The notes below the pieces were generated by a model. That model was not told the origin of the DNA, did not search any database, and was given only the letters and a program-made list of their open reading frames with translations. A DNA stretch of 49,611 nucleotides from a virus, in the IMG/VR virus record IMGVR_UViG_3300012929_000026, positions 1 through 49,611 of that record; one strand, written 5' to 3'. Positions within the stretch are counted from its first letter, which is position 1. The number at the start of each line of letters is the position of its first letter. Shown one piece after another: positions 17,007 to 37,230 of the stretch. The position numbers and the translations under genes were made by a program.

Positions 17007-17255
17007 ATGAAGGTAGTACATTGCAGGGAAGAACCGTATGACGTATATGTTGGCCGTCCTTCCAAGTGGGGAAACCCGTACATTGTCGGAAAAGACGGTA
17101 CCCGAGAGGAAGTTATCCAAAAATACCGCGACTACATCGTTAACAACGAAAGACTTCTGGAGAGCTTATCGGAGCTTAAAGGAAAATGCCTTGCCTGCTG
17201 GTGTGCGCCTTTACCTTGTCACGGAGACGTATTGATGGAGTTAGCTAACAGATGA
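17007..17255 (+). CDS. DUF4326 family protein
   Basis: 82 residues containing the DUF4326 signatures VYVGRPSKWGNPY (about 14-26) and a C-terminal cysteine motif CLACWCAPLPCHGD (about 60-73). The family is widespread in phages and in bacterial nucleotide-related gene clusters; biochemical function is unknown to me. It is the first gene behind the main early promoter and overlaps the following SLOG gene by four bases (ATGA), suggesting a joint early role. Ribosome site AAGGAAA precedes the ATG. Confidence 0.85.
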   Translation: MKVVHCREEPYDVYVGRPSKWGNPYIVGKDGTREEVIQKYRDYIVNNERLLESLSELKGKCLACWCAPLPCHGDVLMELANR

Positions 17256-17596
17256 AAGTACTAGTCACAGGGAGTAGACATCTACAAGACAGAGAGTTGA
17301 TGAAAGAAACGTTGGATGGTTATAGACTTACTGAAATTATCCATGGAAAGGCCAGAGGTGCGGATACGCTTGCGGGAGATTATGGCCGAAGCAATGGTAT
17401 CGAAGTCAGAGAATTCCCTGCTGAATGGGATAAATACGGGCGTGGAGCGGGGCCGATACGAAATAGCCAGATGCTTAAAGAGGGAAAGCCAGACTTAGTC
17501 ATTGCCTTCCTTGCTCCAGGCAGTAGAGGAACCCAAAACATGATTGATCAGGCTAGGAAGGCAGGGATTGAGGTAAAAGTGGTAGATGTATCGTAG
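17252..17596 (+). CDS. SLOG-type nucleotide-binding protein (DUF2493-like)
   Basis: 114 residues with a Rossmann-like SLOG fold: N-terminal strand and loop MKVLVTGSRHLQDREL (GSR motif at 7-9), central IIHGKARGADTLAGDYGR (GGA/RGAD loop), and AGPIRNSQML followed by LVIAFLAPGSRGTQNMI. This is the DUF2493/YspA-like group of the SLOG superfamily, which binds nucleotides or NAD-related ligands. Such proteins occur in phages and in conflict systems. As the second early gene, an anti-defence or nucleotide-salvage role is an inference. No catalytic function can be assigned from motifs alone. Confidence 0.85.
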   Translation: MKVLVTGSRHLQDRELMKETLDGYRLTEIIHGKARGADTLAGDYGRSNGIEVREFPAEWDKYGRGAGPIRNSQMLKEGKPDLVIAFLAPGSRGTQNMIDQARKAGIEVKVVDVS

Positions 17597-22602: not shown

Positions 22603-22785
22603 ATGCCAAAGTATATTCTAGAAGTATACGAGCGCCGCAGTCAACTCCCAGAAGAGTATCGCTGGACCAGTCATCACTGTGATGGCATCTACGACGATGC
22701 CATCAAACTGAACATGGCTATTCTTGAGGCGTTGGCAGACCCTGTCGTCCAATACGTCAAGGTCAGGATAGAGGAGGATGACTGA
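22603..22785 (+). CDS. Unknown protein (60 aa)
   Basis: 60 residues: MPKYILEVYERRSQLPEEYR, TSHHCDGIYDDAIKLNMAIL and VQYVKVRIEEDD. A beta-alpha-beta layout. Ribosome site GAAGGAGGATTAG. Its stop overlaps the NYN gene start (TGATG), so the two may be co-translated. Confidence 0.6.
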   Translation: MPKYILEVYERRSQLPEEYRWTSHHCDGIYDDAIKLNMAILEALADPVVQYVKVRIEEDD

Positions 22786-23354
22786 TGTGGAGTAACAGAC
22801 CATCGGCGGAGGTTACAGCCCTGCTAATCGACGGGGCTAACTGTTATGAGTCCAGCAAGAAGCTGGGCTTTCAAGTCGACTATGCGAAGATACTGAAGTA
22901 CTTCCGCCCTCAACAGGCGATGTACTTCACTGCTCTACCTGAATCAGATCCCGTCAACAATCCTAACGGGTTGTTTAAGATGATCGACTACATTGTCTAT
23001 AACGGGTACACGTTGATTACCAAACCAACGAAGACATTCGTCAACGACGGGGTCGAAGTGATGAAGGGTAACATGGATGTTGAGATCGCCGTCCATGTAA
23101 TCAAGGCCGCCAGATGGGCCAACCATATCGTGTTGTTTACTGGTGACGGTGACTTCAGAATGGCAGTCGAAGATGTTCAGCAACAAGGGACACGGGTCAC
23201 TGTCGTGTCTGCTCTCAAGACCAATCCACCGATGGTGGCAGACGAACTGAGACGTCAGGCTAATGTCTTCATCGATATGGGTAACCCTGAGTTCAGGAAA
23301 CAGATCGAATGGGACAGAGATAAGGCAAGGCGTACATTCTTGGAGGGATCATGA
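22785..23354 (+). CDS. NYN-domain (PIN-like) RNase candidate
   Basis: 189 residues with the NYN/LabA-type (DUF88) layout: strand ending in catalytic Asp LLIDGANCY (D16), a helix, a central acidic residue in KGNMDVEIAVHVI (D98), and the final FTGDGDFRMAV (D121 and D123) next to a helix. These acidic residues form the metal site of PIN-like nucleases. NYN proteins degrade or process RNA. A phage copy in an early operon could act on host RNA or phage transcripts, or against defence RNAs; that is inference. C-terminal helix with RRTFLEGS completes the family-typical length. Confidence 0.8.
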   Translation: MWSNRPSAEVTALLIDGANCYESSKKLGFQVDYAKILKYFRPQQAMYFTALPESDPVNNPNGLFKMIDYIVYNGYTLITKPTKTFVNDGVEVMKGNMDVEIAVHVIKAARWANHIVLFTGDGDFRMAVEDVQQQGTRVTVVSALKTNPPMVADELRRQANVFIDMGNPEFRKQIEWDRDKARRTFLEGS

Positions 23355-31222: not shown

Positions 31223-33187
31223 ATGCGAATAGTATTAGACATTGAATGTAACAGGTTGATCAATCCAGACAAGGTCTGGGTTATAGTTTGCTACGATATT
31301 GATAAGAAGGAATACCATGTATTTAGACACGTTACGGACGATAGAGAAACAGCAGAAGAGTTTAGACGATTTAGTTCTCGCTGTACACTCGTTGTCGGCC
31401 ACAATCTTTGTGGGTATGATCTCCCAGTCCTTGATAATCTTCTTGGGGTTCGGTTTACTGTTCAACAAACATTAGACACTCTCATCATCTCAAAGATGGC
31501 GGACTACTCCCGTAAAAGTCATTCGGTAGAAGACTACGGATTAGAGTTCGGGTATGAAAAAGGAAAACACCAGGACTTCACGAAATATAGTAAGGAACTA
31601 GAAGATTACTGTACACGTGATGTATATATAACTTACGGTATCTATCTTAAGCACCTTAAGTATATAGATAACCTTAAGTACAAAGATGCTATAACCTTAG
31701 AACATAGGTTCCAAGGTATTGTTAATAACCTTAGTACTAATGGCTTTAGTTTCAATAATGGTAAAGCAATATCGTTATTATCTAAGGTAGAAAAAGAATT
31801 AGGTATTATAGATAGTAATATTAGTCTCGCTTTCCCTTCTAAACTAAAGTTAATACGCGAGGTTACACCTAAGGAGACCAAACATGGTACTATCTCTCTT
31901 ACTTCTATACCGAAACTTCTTCGTCAAGATATTCTTTCTATGTCTGTTGGTGCTCCATTCTGTTATTGTTCCTGGGTTGACTTTAATCCTAGTTCTCATA
32001 AACAAATTATTGAAGTTCTTAATGAAGCTGGCTGGTCTCCGGTAGTCAAAACCGACACTCACAAAGAAGTAGAACGTGAGTTAAATAAATTACGTCATAC
32101 TAAGCGAGACGAAGCACTTGACATAAGGTATCAAGAACTATATACTAAGTATAATCAATTAAGAATAACAGGTTGGAAGATATGTGAAGATAACCTAGAG
32201 ACGCTTCCTCCTTCTGCTCCCCCAGCAGCGCGTCTTCTAGCTCGCCGCATCCTGCTTGAGTCCCGACGCCGTACTCTTACAGAGTGGATGGGACTTGCGA
32301 CCCCGGACCATCACGGAACGAACCACCGCATACACGGTAAGTTCTACGGGATTGGTGCCTGGACTCACAGGATGGCGCATCGTCAGCCTAACACCGCAAA
32401 CATTCCCCTAGAGTTCGATACGGCCGGCAACAAGAAGTTATACGGCAAAGAACTCCGCTCTTTATGGCAGGCACCTAAGAACCGACTACTCATAGGTGTC
32501 GATGCCGAAGGAATACAACTCCGGATATTTGCTCATCTCATTGATGATCCTGAATTTACCGAAGCTCTGGTAAAGGGGAAGAAGGATGACAAAACCGATC
32601 CTCACTCACTTAATCGACGAATACTTGGAGACGTCTGCAAAAGCAGGCAAGTTGCTAAGCGATATATCTACGCACTTCTCCTTGGGGCGGGAAAGGGAAA
32701 GCTCCAAGAGATATTGGCGTGCGACGAGGCGTCTGCAGCTGAGGCTTATGAGCGATTACTTCAAAGGTACCCGGGATTTGCGTATCTCAAGGACACAGTC
32801 ATACCTGCTGACGCAAAACGAGGATGGTTCACTGGCATTGACGGTCGTCCAGTTAAAATCCCTTCAGAAACATTCGGAGGGAGAAAACATCTTGCAATGT
32901 CAGGTTATCTCCAAAACGGGGAAGCTGTAGTAATGAAACGTGCCACGTTAGTGTGGCACGATAATTTGAAAGATTACGATGCTTTGTTGGTTAACCTTGT
33001 CCACGATGAATGGCAGGTAGAATGTCCAAACAATATGAACACAGCCTTGTCTATCGCAGAGATGATGGCTTCGTCATTAAAAGAAGTTGGACAGGACCTA
33101 AAATTGATATGTCCCCTTGCTGGCAGTTACTGGAACGATGATTTAAAAGATTACACTATCGCTACTAATTGGTCAAAAACACATTGA
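31223..33187 (+). CDS. DNA polymerase, family A (T7-like)
   Basis: 654 residues. N-terminal 3'-5' exonuclease: VLDIECNRL (D4 and E6), GHNLCGYDLPVLDNL near 61 and RDVYITYGIY near 138 for the other acidic residues. Polymerase: motif A GVDAEGIQLRIFAHL near 426, motif B RQVAKRYIYALLLGAGKGKL near 474-493, motif C VHDEWQ near 593. Shorter than T7 Pol (704). The gene is unusually AT-rich in the exonuclease-to-thumb part (31620-32180) with several CCTTAAG/CCTTAG words, unlike the C-terminal half. Works with the primase-helicase upstream. Confidence 0.93.
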   Translation: MRIVLDIECNRLINPDKVWVIVCYDIDKKEYHVFRHVTDDRETAEEFRRFSSRCTLVVGHNLCGYDLPVLDNLLGVRFTVQQTLDTLIISKMADYSRKSHSVEDYGLEFGYEKGKHQDFTKYSKELEDYCTRDVYITYGIYLKHLKYIDNLKYKDAITLEHRFQGIVNNLSTNGFSFNNGKAISLLSKVEKELGIIDSNISLAFPSKLKLIREVTPKETKHGTISLTSIPKLLRQDILSMSVGAPFCYCSWVDFNPSSHKQIIEVLNEAGWSPVVKTDTHKEVERELNKLRHTKRDEALDIRYQELYTKYNQLRITGWKICEDNLETLPPSAPPAARLLARRILLESRRRTLTEWMGLATPDHHGTNHRIHGKFYGIGAWTHRMAHRQPNTANIPLEFDTAGNKKLYGKELRSLWQAPKNRLLIGVDAEGIQLRIFAHLIDDPEFTEALVKGKKDDKTDPHSLNRRILGDVCKSRQVAKRYIYALLLGAGKGKLQEILACDEASAAEAYERLLQRYPGFAYLKDTVIPADAKRGWFTGIDGRPVKIPSETFGGRKHLAMSGYLQNGEAVVMKRATLVWHDNLKDYDALLVNLVHDEWQVECPNNMNTALSIAEMMASSLKEVGQDLKLICPLAGSYWNDDLKDYTIATNWSKTH

Positions 33188-33194
33188 GGTTAAA

Positions 33195-33365
33195 ATGAAA
33201 GATTGGAATGTAGAATACGATTATACCATGCGCACCGGCGGTGCTATGACGTTTCAGGCAGAGACCCGCGATGAGGCGGAGAGCCTCGGCTATGATTACG
33301 TTCGGGAGACATATCCAGACGCTATCGATATTGAAGTTGTAGAAGTGGATGAAATTAAGAAATAA
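33195..33365 (+). CDS. Small acidic protein (56 aa)
   Basis: 56 residues: MKDWNVEYDYTMRTGGAMTF, then QAETRDEAESLGYDYVRETY and PDAIDIEVVEVDEIKK. Strand-helix-strand with an acidic tail, as in small regulators of nucleic-acid enzymes. Its stop overlaps the ssDNA-binding-protein ATG (TAATG). Function unknown. Confidence 0.65.
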   Translation: MKDWNVEYDYTMRTGGAMTFQAETRDEAESLGYDYVRETYPDAIDIEVVEVDEIKK

Positions 33366-33877
33366 TGGCTAATTATGAAAAGACGAAGCGCATTTCCGTC
33401 AAAGGTAAATGCAAGTGGGCGCATGTGACTCGACTGAACAGATTTGATGAATGGTCTGTCGAATTGTGGCCTACTCCTGAAGACCTCGAAGTCATTCGAG
33501 AACTTCAGAGTAGAGGCTTGAAGAATACTATGAGAAAGGACGAGGATGGATATAACATCCGATTTAAAAGAAGCCCCAAGCGAGACATCCGACTCAAGAC
33601 TGGAGAAGTCAAGACACTTATTTTCTCTCCTCCTACTGTGGCTATGGCTGACGGTTCCCCCCTTCCTAGTGGGGTATCTGTTGGGAATGGCAGCGATGTT
33701 ACCATCATCCTTGAAGTGTATACTCATGGAACTCCCGGAGGGGGTAAGGCTGTTGCAGCTAGGTTAGAAGGGATTAGGGTAGACAACCTTGTTCCATTCA
33801 ATCCTGACTCAGACTATGATGTTGAGACGAAAGCGAAGGTTGACGAGCTGAGAGATCAGCCCGAACATACTTTCTAA
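33365..33877 (+). CDS. Single-stranded DNA-binding protein candidate
   Basis: 170 residues. A beta-rich domain with ISVKGKCKWAHVTRLNRFDEW, FSPPTVAMADGSPLPSGVSV and GNGSDVTIILEVYTHGTPGG, ending in an acidic tail (PDSDYDVETKAKVDELRDQ). This is a pattern I associate with podovirus ssDNA-binding or annealing proteins with an OB fold, and T7 gp2.5 likewise has an acidic C-terminus. Position immediately after the DNA polymerase supports it. It would coat ssDNA and recruit the polymerase. Confidence moderate as OB folds are not diagnostic by eye. Confidence 0.65.
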   Translation: MANYEKTKRISVKGKCKWAHVTRLNRFDEWSVELWPTPEDLEVIRELQSRGLKNTMRKDEDGYNIRFKRSPKRDIRLKTGEVKTLIFSPPTVAMADGSPLPSGVSVGNGSDVTIILEVYTHGTPGGGKAVAARLEGIRVDNLVPFNPDSDYDVETKAKVDELRDQPEHTF

Positions 33878-33886
33878 GGTGAAGAT

Positions 33887-34003
33887 ATGACTTTCTGGAA
33901 AACTGTAGGAGCTGTCGTCGTGGCTCAATTAATCATGACGTTTGTAACGCTGCTGTTTTACGTGGCGTTGCTTTTAGCAATACCGAGTGAGTGGATACGA
34001 TGA
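33887..34003 (+). CDS. Single-span membrane peptide (38 aa)
   Basis: 38 residues: MTFWKTVGAVVVAQLIMTFV then TLLFYVALLLAIPSEWIR, one long membrane helix with Trp at both ends. The stop at 34003 touches the beginning of the structured RNA region. Ribosome site AAGGTGAAGAT. Function unknown. Confidence 0.55.
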   Translation: MTFWKTVGAVVVAQLIMTFVTLLFYVALLLAIPSEWIR

Positions 34004-35760
34004 TCCCGTGAGTAGGGCAAACCGTCTGAAGTAGGCCCGCGGAGTGACGATCCGCTCACGGTTCCTCCTGCGATCCAAACGCAGTAGAGGTGTGGAGCTG
34101 CATAGAGGCAACTCTGGTGGCTAGAGACGACAGCCGGGATTGGAGTAAGACTCCACGTCTGGAGTGAATGAAGCAAATTCCTCAGTCGAAAACCACAGCC
34201 CTGAAAGAGGCCGGGCATGAGAGTCCGAGACGTCTAGTCTCGTCTGTGATTGAGGTCGTGGAGTGAAATATACGGAGATGCCACGTTAATCCGCCGTATA
34301 CCAAGCACTAGTGTGAAGACTTAGTTGTCGAGCAATAGGCGCTGAAGGGACACCCTAGACAAAAGGGAACCGGTGCGAACCCGGTAAAGAACTGGAGCGT
34401 GAGCGGACTTTGTCGTAAGCAGAACGTGCACCGGTCTCATTAGCCGGTATATAAAACCTTACGAGTGGAACTCGCGGTATCTCTTCGGGAACTGTGGTGC
34501 ACAGGAAACGATGATCTCCTAAGGAGAATTGATACCAAGGATGCAGCGTAACTCTCCATCTTCCATAGCCGAGGAGTTACACAGTGGCAGAAATGAGCCA
34601 ATCTTTCTGATCGAAATAGAGGAGCGTGACCTCTCTCCGTGTACGGAGGCCTTGCGGGTAGTAGATCAGACAATGACAGCGGGATGTTCGAGTCGTCCAG
34701 ACTGGGTGTAGCTGTCAATGAAGTATGGATCGCTCTGCGGAATGCAAGCCGGGTGAAACTGGTTGATGTCGTGTCGAGCACGACCTGTGTATTAAGCTTA
34801 CAGCCTGGACGGAAGTTAACCACATAACGCCATGCATCGAATGCCGATAGCTGGTTCAGAGACTCTCAATCTCTCAATCAGACTGTTAGGAAATCGTAGA
34901 CCCGAAAGGTTAGAGTTCCTTCAGGATCAAACGTCCATTAACCGAGACACGCCTTGAAACGTTGAGGACTGTTCGATCAGTCTAGTATGCGACAATCGTA
35001 GACATAGCCTAGGGGAAACCGTCGGGTAGTCTGCTGAGAGTTAAGCATTACTGACCGACCCTGTTTGGATGACAACCGTAAGCGAAGAGCTTACGAAGAA
35101 TGGCATCAGTCGTTCACTGGTTGTCATTGATCTTCCGACATCGGAAGGATATCGAGGTAAGAACTCCTATACGTGGAGCACCGAAAGCTAGATAGTTCTA
35201 GGGCAAGACCGTAAAGCCTGACCGTAACTCAGGTCCCATATGGACGTAGTCGAGAGAGCTTTCAAGAACATGTTAGAGAGACAGCGTTCACAACGATATC
35301 GAACTAAGAAAGGGCTAACGACCCATCTTAGAAACAGACTACTGACATAAGCCTGCGCGATGGCGATGAGCCTAGCCGGAGCTGAATGGAGCAGCGGAAC
35401 TACGACGAGGTGCAATTCCTCAATGCCTAGAGGCTAGAGCAGTTTCACATACTGCTGACCGTAGCTGTAACAGAAGACTCCTTGTCTGCAAGTCCATGAA
35501 TTTCAACGCACCAGATTAGTGCACCACCGGAATGGAAGGTACGAGAACCAGACACCGAATACGCAGCGATCCTCTAGCAGAAGGAGACGCGCTATGTGCG
35601 TCATGAACACTGTGTCTAAACTTCTCAAATACCACTCTCGGTTTGAGATGCCGCCTTAAGTTGATTAGGGCGGGAACGTAGTACCAAGAGCAGTGAAAGC
35701 TTCTTCAGGTATAGTTCCCGCCTCCCAAATCAGAGACGCCAGCTTCGCTGGCTTAGGAGA
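34004..35760 (+). ncRNA. Giant structured non-coding RNA candidate (about 1.75 kb)
   Basis: No plausible gene in any frame; longest open frames are scattered, low-complexity-free shadows on both strands. The plus strand is filled with perfect hairpins. Examples: CCGTGAG/CTCACGG (34006/34055), CCTC-CTGCG..CGCAG-GAGG (34064-34090), AGAG-GCAA-CTCT (34104-34115, GNRA), TGGAGT/ACTCCA (34141-34155) stacked in AGACG/CGTCT, CGAGAC/GTCTCG (34226-34242), TATACGG/CCGTATA (34269/34294), GTAACTC/GAGTTAC (34548/34574), TGACAGC/GCTGTCA (34674/34711), GTCGTG/CACGAC (34768-34784), ATGACAAC/GTTGTCAT (35069/35120) enclosing CGTAAGC/GCTTACG, CTTCCGA/TCGGAAG (35132-35147), CTAAGA/TCTTAG (35304/35326), AGCAGT/ACTGCT (35438-35456), GACGC/GCGTC (35586-35602), CTCAAA/TTTGAG (35624/35642), GGCGGGAAC/GTTCCCGCC (35669/35714), GCCAG-CTTCG-CTGGC (35738-35752). 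GNRA, UUCG and T-loops read correctly only on this strand. Style matches GOLLD/ROOL/OLE-type ornate RNAs; class unknown. Probably cotranscribed with flanking genes; no own promoter or terminator found. Confidence 0.8.
34674..34717 (+). ncRNA. T-loop substructure within the giant RNA
   Basis: Stem TGACAGC/GCTGTCA (7 bp, perfect) encloses a hairpin GGATG-TTCGAGT-CGTCC (34682-34698) that fits the tRNA T-arm rule: 5-bp stem closed by G-C and the 7-base loop TTCRANN. No matching acceptor, D or anticodon arm is present upstream, so this is not a tRNA gene but a T-loop motif, which large RNAs use for tertiary contacts. Confidence 0.65.
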
Positions 35761-35765
35761 CGAAC

Positions 35766-36068
35766 ATGAAGAACCTCGAACGAATGATGTTGGAGTTGCT
35801 CTTCGATAAGAAACTGGAAGCGCCTCCGACAAAGAAGAAAATCGCCAGGGACTTGACAGTGAAGCAATTCATTAAAGTCCTTAAGAACATGCCAGAGTTC
35901 AAGAGAGAGTTTGAAGAAGCTCTGAAATCTCTCGAACCGAAAGCTAAAGACAAAGACAAGCTTACGCTTGGTCAGAAATATATGATGTGGACGTTGGCCG
36001 CAATAACGTTGCCGCCTCTGTACGTGGCGCTTATTCACGCGCTCTTCACAACGATTTCTGGTAAGTAA
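35766..36068 (+). CDS. Basic protein with C-terminal membrane segment (100 aa)
   Basis: 100 residues: a Lys-rich soluble part (KNLERMMLELLFDKKLEAPP, TKKKIARDLTVKQFIKVLKN) and a C-terminal membrane helix (about 73-95, MMWTLAAITLPPLYVALIHALF). ATG at 35766 follows TAGGAGACGAAC. It is the first gene after the structured RNA and might act with it, but this is only positional. No family recognised. Confidence 0.6.
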   Translation: MKNLERMMLELLFDKKLEAPPTKKKIARDLTVKQFIKVLKNMPEFKREFEEALKSLEPKAKDKDKLTLGQKYMMWTLAAITLPPLYVALIHALFTTISGK

Positions 36069-36087
36069 GGAGCTATGCTCCCGTAGT

Positions 36088-36144
36088 TAGGACCTAGGTC
36101 CCTAAGAAAGGCCACACTGTGGGTGTTGTACCCTCTAGGTCCTA
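36088..36144 (+). other. Long inverted repeat with structured interior
   Basis: TAGGACCTAG (36088-36097) and CTAGGTCCTA (36135-36144) form a perfect 10-bp stem with a 37-base interior that can pair further (CCACACTGTGGGTG; GGTC..). A small hairpin GGAGC-TAT-GCTCC lies just before (36069-36081). No U-tract; a riboswitch-like leader or processing site for the next gene at 36158 is possible. Confidence 0.55.
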
Positions 36145-36157
36145 TTAAAGGATTAAA

Positions 36158-36376
36158 ATGATCGTATCAGATTTGATTAAAGAACTAGAAAAGCTACCGA
36201 AAGATATGTTTGTCCTTGGACGAGGATATGAAAGTGGTTATAACGATATTGATGAAGTGGATATCCAAACATTAGTAAGGTGCGATAATGATTGGTACGA
36301 CGGAGAATACCAAGAACCGAGTTCATTCAGCGGTAAACCCATAGATCTACCAGAAGAATACATATGCCTAACATAA
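36158..36376 (+). CDS. Unknown acidic protein (72 aa)
   Basis: 72 residues: MIVSDLIKELEKLPKDMFVL, GRGYESGYNDIDEVDIQTLV, CDNDWYDGEYQEPSSFSGKP and a short end. Very acidic. ATG preceded by AAAGGATTAAA. It overlaps the exonuclease gene by 13 bases. Similar short proteins with an LxxxLxxLP start are common in phages; function unknown. Confidence 0.65.
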   Translation: MIVSDLIKELEKLPKDMFVLGRGYESGYNDIDEVDIQTLVRCDNDWYDGEYQEPSSFSGKPIDLPEEYICLT

Positions 36377-37230
36377 ATACTCTCATCAAGGATATACAGA
36401 GTCTTGTCGGAAACAAACAAGGATGGTTCACCGAAGAAGTGGCAAAGACGTACGCCGAGGAAGTCACAGTCAGACTCCGACGCTCGTTTGGAGCTAGAAC
36501 GGATGTACCTAGACTACGTCTCAGCCAGCTGGGCCCGAAGTGCCCAAGAGCATTGTGGCACTCCATTCATAGTCAAGGGCTTGCAGAACCCCTCCCCGCT
36601 TCCGCCGTGGTCAAATTCACTTATGGACATCTAATCGAAGCCCTCGTAATCGCGTGGGCTAAACAAGCTGGACACGAAGTAACAGGAGAGCAAGATGAGC
36701 TATCTCTTCTCGATATCACCGGTCATAGAGATTGTGTTATTGACGGTTGTGTGGTCGACGTCAAATCTACTGCCAGTCGCAGCTTTATCAAGTTCAAGGA
36801 TCACACGCTTGGGGATTCTGACAGTTTTGGGTATCTGGATCAACTGGATGGCTATCTTGCAGCTTCGGCTAATGACCCTCTGGTCAGAACTAAAGATGTC
36901 GGATATTTATTCGCTGTTGACAAACAACTAGGACATATGGTGCTATATGAACACAAACTCCGACCGGATCATATCCTTCAAAGAATTAATGACTATAAAC
37001 GAATTGTGGGTCTCGATCAGCCACCCCCTTGCACTTGCGGTACGGTCGCCGACGGTAAAGCAGGAAACGTTAGACTTGATGTCCCGGCAAGCTACAGCGC
37101 TTTCAAACATGTGTGCTTCCCTGGCCTCAGAACCTTCCTCTACTCCGACGGACCAAGATACCTCACTAAGGTAGTGAGGAAACCTGATGTAATCGAGGTA
37201 AATCGTCATGGACAAGTCGTATATAACTGA
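36364..37230 (+). CDS. PD-(D/E)xK exonuclease (Cas4/RecB-like)
   Basis: 288 residues. Core: KCPRALWHSIHSQG near 60, an alpha helix with E92 (YGHLIEALVIAWAKQAGH), GHRD with D123, VVDVKS with D132 and K134, and a following Q160 (YLDQLDGYL), which together form the metal and catalytic residues of the RecB/lambda-exonuclease-like fold. A Cys-containing C-terminal part (CTCGTVADGK) could bind a cluster as in Cas4. It degrades or processes DNA ends, replacing T7 gp6 exonuclease in host DNA breakdown, recombination and primer removal. Confidence 0.85.
   Translation: MPNINTLIKDIQSLVGNKQGWFTEEVAKTYAEEVTVRLRRSFGARTDVPRLRLSQLGPKCPRALWHSIHSQGLAEPLPASAVVKFTYGHLIEALVIAWAKQAGHEVTGEQDELSLLDITGHRDCVIDGCVVDVKSTASRSFIKFKDHTLGDSDSFGYLDQLDGYLAASANDPLVRTKDVGYLFAVDKQLGHMVLYEHKLRPDHILQRINDYKRIVGLDQPPPCTCGTVADGKAGNVRLDVPASYSAFKHVCFPGLRTFLYSDGPRYLTKVVRKPDVIEVNRHGQVVYN

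Follow-up and report, generated by a model that had tools for sequence, protein, structure and literature searches.

GOLLD (RF02032), a giant ornate RNA of ~0.8 kb with many domains and conserved loops that is borne by phages or prophages, forms a homo-multimeric RNA particle, a 14-mer, ROOL (RF03087), likewise giant and ornate, occurs in phages and mobile elements, and we know of no function for either of these giant structured RNAs. Both are phage-borne, and GOLLD often lies beside tRNA islands (PMC12286853). OLE is ~0.6 kb long and comes from Gram-positive extremophiles. It is a large structured RNA with a membrane-protein gene as its commonest immediate downstream neighbour (PMC12265935). 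In tmRNA, including its permuted two-piece form, a tRNA-like domain and a short reading frame are joined in one structured RNA; circularly permuted tRNA genes place the T-arm half before the D-arm half (PMC3978253); and in the E. coli test protein YbeL-PP a C-terminal Pro-Pro before the stop codon disturbs termination, with stop-codon cleavage and SsrA tagging (PMC3834316).

Judged from its sequence, the RNA that we describe here would work partly like, and is not to be filed under, GOLLD, ROOL, OLE, tmRNA or tRNA. It is found in a 49.6-kb IMG/VR virus record (49,611 nucleotides, which we call the window) from a phage whose terminase shares ~61% identity with the terminases of P12053L and other Celeribacter/Lentibacter podoviruses. 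There it lies between the gene for a gp2.5-like single-stranded DNA-binding protein (SSB) and a gene for a 100-aa protein, with replication genes tightly packed around it (Table 1). The syntenic gap begins at the SSB stop codon and ends at the Cas4-like exonuclease gene, and, as the earlier note on this DNA had held of the region, no long conserved ORF is present on either strand.

Table 1 Features of the window in and around the giant structured RNA
Feature	Position	Strand	Basis and remarks
DNA polymerase I	31223..33187	+	phrog_17, E 6.9e-86; phylogenetic marker here
gp2.5-like ssDNA-binding protein (SSB)	33365..33877	+	phrog_112, E 1.7e-5; family synteny
38-codon ORF with hydrophobic stretch, between SSB and RNA	33887..34003	+	sequence
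Giant structured RNA, whole element	34004..35756	+	synteny, alignment, covariation, consensus fold; no Rfam match
5' domain, closing helix 34006-34012/34055-34061 (CCGTGAG/CTCACGG)	34006..34061	+	window-group alignment, consensus fold
Covarying helix 34271-34275/34294-34298	34269..34300	+	5/5 pairs doubly substituted; encloses invariant ATGCCACGTTAATCCG
T-loop hairpin ACCGG-TGCGAAC-CCGGT	34369..34385	+	
Conserved-loop (AC) hairpin ACCGG-TCTCATTAG-CCGGT	34430..34448	+	loop invariant, stem fully covarying, 22 relatives
Domain closed by long-range helix 34578-34584/34785-34791	34578..34791	+	compensatory changes, group A
Elements inside the preceding domain	34606-34612/34664-34670; 34618-34622/34630-34634; 34635-34639/34644-34648; 34768-34784		
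tRNA-type T-arm GGATG-TTCGAGT-CGTCC	34682..34698	+	
Helix 35099-35103/35124-35128	35099..35128	+	5/5 pairs doubly substituted
Domain closed by 35148-35154/35294-35300, inner helix 35185-35189/35257-35261	35148..35300	+	covariation, consensus fold
Domain with 35344-35347/35483-35486, 35388-35391/35478-35481, 35438-35443/35451-35456	35342..35488	+	covariation, consensus fold
Shine-Dalgarno AAGGAG of mini-ORF	35581..35586	+	
Start-codon hairpin GACGC-GCTATGT-GCGTC	35586..35602	+	sequence, alignment; L013 equivalent CACAC..GTGTG
Mini-ORF, MCVMNTVSKLLKYHSRFEMPP then stop	35594..35659	+	21 codons, ends CCG CCT TAA
Post-stop helix GGCGGGAAC/GTTCCCGCC	35669..35722	+	covarying; conserved AAAGCTT apical region
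3' hairpin GCCAGC-TTC-GCTGGC	35738..35752	+	sequence, consensus fold; just 5' of next Shine-Dalgarno
100-aa protein	35766..36068	+	Lys-rich N-terminal part, one C-terminal hydrophobic helix
Cas4-like exonuclease	36364..37230	+	phrog_1990, E 9.2e-26

Known RNA models did not recognise the element. A cmscan of 33870-35800 against all Rfam families at E<=10 gave two chance-level hits and nothing else, the OLE covariance model was unmatched in the window, and in 21 relatives nothing reached the gathering score. When the GOLLD model was run against 20 records its best match was a 16-nt fragment (E 2.1); the ROOL model had no cmscan match, and a direct ROOL search was also empty, its positive controls likewise giving no signal; and the group II intron model RF01998 gave sub-threshold matches only. 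ARAGORN found neither tRNA nor tmRNA in the window and made three tRNA hits across 74 gaps, while the tRNA-like domain of tmRNA was found by neither ARAGORN nor Rfam in the window or its relatives. The earlier note had wavered between a distant GOLLD or ROOL member and a new class; these searches lend the former no Rfam support, with the caveat on the ROOL controls just given, and the latter is strongly supported.

The likenesses to these systems are of another kind. With GOLLD the RNA shares a phage-borne, multi-domain, ornate build and a link to tRNAs, but it is longer (1.1-3.9 kb across the family) and, unlike GOLLD, has an embedded Shine-Dalgarno-led ORF ending in Pro-Pro-stop, permuted tRNA-like modules and a fixed site between SSB and Cas4; it is also longer than ROOL and carries other motifs. 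As with OLE, the gene immediately downstream encodes a membrane protein, but OapA has four transmembrane helices and the 100-aa neighbour has one hydrophobic helix and no Pfam match, and no test made supported homology between the two. A tRNA-like domain (here permuted) and a short reading frame within one structured RNA recall tmRNA, whereas the mini-ORF has its own Shine-Dalgarno and ATG, unlike a tmRNA-type resume frame, and ends in Pro-Pro-UAA, and the acceptor-like stem is capped. The tRNA-like modules depart from the canonical cloverleaf order in the same sense as permuted tRNA genes do, except that the acceptor-like stem is mostly closed by a 3-9-nt loop and sits inside a kilobase RNA; no sign of processing of these units was found. 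The family likely represents a new giant phage RNA class, one that would engage ribosomes.

The many perfect stems that the earlier note had read by eye are only partly informative, since stems of 5 bp occur at chance (62 vs 58 shuffled) and only those of at least 7 bp are enriched (9 vs 3.2, maximum 5); the convincing evidence for structure is comparative. Single-sequence folding against dinucleotide shuffles yielded z values of -2.2 and -3.8 for the two halves of the region. In alignments, the mean alignment-fold z over 160-column windows was -3.6 for the window group (the window, L002, L013, L126 and L012) and -4.9 for group B, as against +0.2 and -0.2 for the polymerase genes of the same phages. 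Counted without a folding model in four diverged members, 13 helices had at least three doubly substituted pairs, against 1.25 in column shuffles (maximum 4), and 34 had at least two, against 11.9, so that the alignment of homologues, proposed earlier as a check, did reveal covarying pairs. An RNAalifold consensus for the window group contains 67 helices with double substitutions at 167 of 398 pairs, a count that is illustrative, as the structure was fitted to the same alignment; the within-group alignments comprise few distinct sequences with large indels.

Individual helices bear this out. The 5' stem at 34006-34061, which contains a conserved AAACCGTCTGA loop at 34019-34029, and the 9-bp stem 35669/35714 are both conserved with compensatory changes, the former appearing as GATACTG/CAGTATC in L013 and the post-stop helix as GTGGGGC/GCCCCAC in L013 and GTGGGAC/GTCCCAC in L012. 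The 8-bp stem read at 35069-35127, on the other hand, is broken in the 94%-identical L002, and the conserved covarying helix there is the competing 35099-35103/35124-35128. Because helices are symmetric, these alignments score on their minus strand as well (z -3.4 and -3.2), and the strand was assigned instead from motifs. The plus strands of 74 relatives carry 131 tRNA-type T-arms and the minus strands 5 (shuffled sequence, 8), and GNRA hairpins come to 70 and 29 on the respective strands, as the T-loop and GNRA motifs had suggested at the outset; gap-to-gap BLAST matches were 633 plus and 0 minus. Between the window and L002 the region shows 86 substitutions as well as indels of 1, 3 and 5 nt; since the indels break every checked ORF of at least 60 aa and the substitutions are distributed over codon positions, such ORFs inside the region are not genes. 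A plus-strand structured RNA of ~1.75 kb with a multi-domain covarying fold, giant and densely folded as first proposed, is thus strongly supported by covariation, alignment-fold scores and strand-specific motifs.

Motifs common to family members that otherwise cannot be aligned turned out to be parts of hairpins, among them a recurrent GTCTCATTAGC-loop hairpin. In the AC hairpin, whose geometry is like that of an anticodon arm (in the window, loop CU-CAU-UA), the stem around the TCTCATTA(G/A) loop is 97.7% paired with all Watson-Crick types (n=22), and its covariation score is 0.878, against 0.168 when shuffled and at most 0.152 when slid. The T-arms have exactly five covarying pairs below a 7-nt loop, as in tRNA, with pairs 3 and 4 formed in 95/110 and 103/110 cases (41 and 43 expected). 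Many relatives carry a T-arm followed directly by a capped acceptor-like stem of 5-7 bp and then a tRNA-Leu-like D-arm (TGGCGAAATTGGTAGACGC), a unit whose order of parts is that of a circularly permuted tRNA. Of 28 T-arm/D-arm pairs picked by sequence alone, 18 proved to have a capped stem of at least 5 bp flush between the arms, as opposed to 3.6% of shuffles. The window has the AC hairpin, the T-loop hairpin and the T-arm, and its group is without a clear permuted module. As a separate observation, GGAGGCTAAAA, TCCGGTGRCAGACG, GCCAGATAAGC and AGTATCCTAGAA recur as module motifs in conserved-loop hairpin contexts in L018, L021, L034, L091, L094, L100, L107, L115 and other gaps.

The 3' motif CCNCCTTAA proved to be the end of a short reading frame. 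While the region holds no conserved protein gene, the judgement that it lacks any credible gene had therefore missed a Shine-Dalgarno-led mini-ORF of 21 codons, whose counterparts (11-33 codons, Pro-Pro-UAA at the end, near the RNA 3' end) are present in 60 of 74 loci, one per locus, and in all four held-out complete loci (L137, L139, L140 and L142); several of the ~14 loci in which none was detected are truncated by contig ends. When all short ORFs of 8-36 codons with a Shine-Dalgarno were counted in the 74 gaps, 246 were found, of which 60 ended in Pro-Pro and at most 4 in the next commonest dipeptide, compared with none on the opposite strand, 0-3 after shuffling, 0/251 in outgroup loci and 1/586 in ingroup flanks. 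The stop codon is UAA in 59/60. A Shine-Dalgarno-led start meets the motif in frame 0, 1 or 2 in 53, 9 and 1 of 63 contexts, with ATG as start in 48/53 and CCT as second Pro codon in 45/53, CCT being also the commonest Pro codon of the polymerase genes. That CCNCCTTAA is chiefly an anti-Shine-Dalgarno mimic is a reading that we set aside, in view of the free variation at the third base of the first Pro codon and of the preference for frame 0.

The peptides themselves differ between relatives (MNIRSSQQKPRPP, MRVFLLAPKRPP and MFPMWYGKMPP), while that of the window recurs without change in L002 and can still be recognised in L012, L013 and L126. Their lengths cluster at 11-15 and 20-24 codons, such that a peptide would barely emerge from the exit tunnel. 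With the start codon in a hairpin loop and a covarying helix after the stop (Table 1), the mini-ORF is embedded in the structured RNA, and, as is typical of a leader or arrest peptide, it lies just 5' of another gene: in 59/59 loci listed, the next ORF (at least 45 aa) begins 2-309 nt, mostly 40-110, downstream. This ORF, the counterpart of the 100-aa gene, encodes in most cases a protein of ~100 aa that has a single hydrophobic helix towards its C-terminal end (hydropathy >1.6 in 45/59). Taken jointly, a structured RNA with a mini-ORF is, from these comparisons, a very probable reading.

Polymerase-based scans yielded about 135 loci, and ~70 related uncultured phages, mostly soil-like, have a counterpart of 1.1-3.9 kb at the same place. 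Wherever the polymerase is ~47% identical or more, the SSB is separated by 1.1-3.9 kb from the next conserved gene, whereas in most outgroup loci only 0-374 nt separate it from a Cas4-like gene, with the exception of L130 (0.8 kb). In the polymerase tree one branch, with support 100, sets the 63 gap-bearing loci for which data are complete apart from 19 others; this is a single change, and accordingly a single gain of the giant RNA in one phage clade. The nearest lineages without the RNA differ in what they have at this spot: L124 (8905-8999) a 75-nt tRNA-like gene with an odd shortened anticodon loop, L125 a structured stretch of 128 nt, and L141 (8625-8995) a 371-nt gap in which ~260 nt of other structured sequence accompany a tRNA-Trp gene. 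As sister lineages have tRNA-type genes at the same spot, it is reasonable to infer that the giant RNA arose around a tRNA gene that the phages carried there.

Among the closest relatives, the RNA and SSB of the window resemble those of L012 and L013, whereas in the polymerase tree it sits with L002 and L089. This disagreement among the window, L002, L012, L013 and L126 points to exchange of the SSB-RNA block, which was probably swapped by recombination. Against annotated phages, blastn gave chance-level matches for the RNA of the window, none for that of L011 and one chance-like 50-nt match for that of L106, so that no carrier isolate was found; a genome-contig scan returned a single distant relative. 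The literature searched, which left preprints and most subscription papers outside, yielded no published description of such an RNA.

On balance, we think it somewhat more probable than not that the RNA of the window belongs to a giant-RNA family with an embedded mini-ORF on which, in the simplest combined model, an arrested ribosome would be parked. A ribosome would be recruited to the 3' part of the RNA, translate 11-33 codons and stall while terminating at Pro-Pro-UAA, leaving the RNA with an arrested ribosome near its 3' end; this could alter how the 3' part folds and how the membrane-protein gene next to it is expressed, tether the RNA to the translation apparatus, or both. The tRNA-like parts would act as folding and docking elements, and the target might be that gene, the ribosome, or the RNA's own stability or assembly. 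A peptide conserved in its Shine-Dalgarno and Pro-Pro-stop end and otherwise variable hints, by extension from E. coli, at a deliberate termination arrest in cis; YbeL-PP has the identical C-terminal Pro-Pro and stop, but it is a test protein, whereas here arrest is proposed by analogy for a conserved mini-ORF in a giant phage RNA. That arrest is the working principle of the RNA is accordingly a tentative proposal, plausible and short of probable. A bolder version, which we regard as rather unlikely, is a phage RNA machine, evolved from the SSB-Cas4 tRNA gene, that captures ribosomes and thereby redirects translation in the infected cell. Its kilobase scaffold, bearing modules that resemble permuted tRNAs and anticodon arms, would start a ribosome on its own mini-ORF, freeze it at Pro-Pro-UAA and put it to use, perhaps at the membrane through the adjacent tail-anchored protein.

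The position of the mini-ORF just upstream of a usually single-TM product, and the structure around its start codon and between it and the next ORF, would suit a very long structured 5' leader, with the mini-ORF as a leader or arrest peptide controlling translation of the ~100-aa membrane protein and the upstream kilobase as the sensing or folding machinery of the switch. We take this to be possible though somewhat unlikely, in that 1.1-3.9 kb with many tRNA-like modules far exceeds known attenuators and the strongest modules lie up to one kilobase 5' of the mini-ORF. Unlikely, too, is an ornate RNA of GOLLD or ROOL type that assembles into a homo-multimeric particle, with a subordinate part for the mini-ORF, whose parked ribosome might for instance shield the 3' end; a phage-borne, giant, densely covarying RNA, rich in T-loops and GNRA loops at a tRNA-linked locus, fits such a particle, but GOLLD and the other Rfam models are unmatched, and a cage would constrain geometry where the clade shows 3-fold length variation. 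Phages answer tRNA-cutting defences with tRNAs, and T-arm, D-arm and anticodon-arm mimics could serve as a decoy or sponge for host tRNA-processing enzymes or tRNA-cutting defence nucleases, as the many tRNA-type modules and the tRNA genes of sister lineages might suggest; the acceptor-like stems, however, are capped and permuted, and this reading, which we consider very unlikely, leaves the Pro-Pro-UAA mini-ORF and the linked membrane protein unexplained. Hardly credible is that the region is a decayed tRNA cluster or some other degenerate sequence with no function, or that it acts at the DNA level, for example as an origin. The tRNA-like pieces, and a tRNA gene here in outgroups, count in favour, but neither decay nor a double-stranded DNA signal would lead one to expect covariation by compensatory change, motifs specific to one strand, loops that do not vary or an in-frame mini-ORF that is conserved, and covariation already contradicts this reading unless the alignments are artefactual.

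The family offers what GOLLD and ROOL lack: a fixed gene neighbourhood, a single origin beside lineages whose corresponding site holds an ordinary tRNA gene, and, inside the RNA, a mini-ORF with an arrest-type ending that is open to mutation and would link the RNA to the ribosome. If our preferred reading is true, it would show how tRNA parts can make up a structured RNA of enormous size, and what giant phage RNAs do could then be tested directly.

Around the RNA, the 38-codon hydrophobic ORF that precedes it is missing from L002 and probably lies outside the giant RNA proper, and searches of Pfam and PHROG with the 100-aa protein gave zero matches. A scan of 33600-36200 for sigma-70-like promoters found none, and the RNA may thus be merely part of a long mRNA. 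The intergenic stretch at 36069-36157, between the 100-aa gene and the next ORF, contains strong inverted repeats (GGACCTAG...CTAGGTCC) and is possibly a second RNA element. Elsewhere in the window, a YspA/cpYpsA-related SLOG-family protein (PF10686) is encoded at 17252-17596, and a NYN-domain protein (PF01936), a putative RNase encoded at 22785-23354 in the same early region as the giant RNA, could be relevant to its processing.
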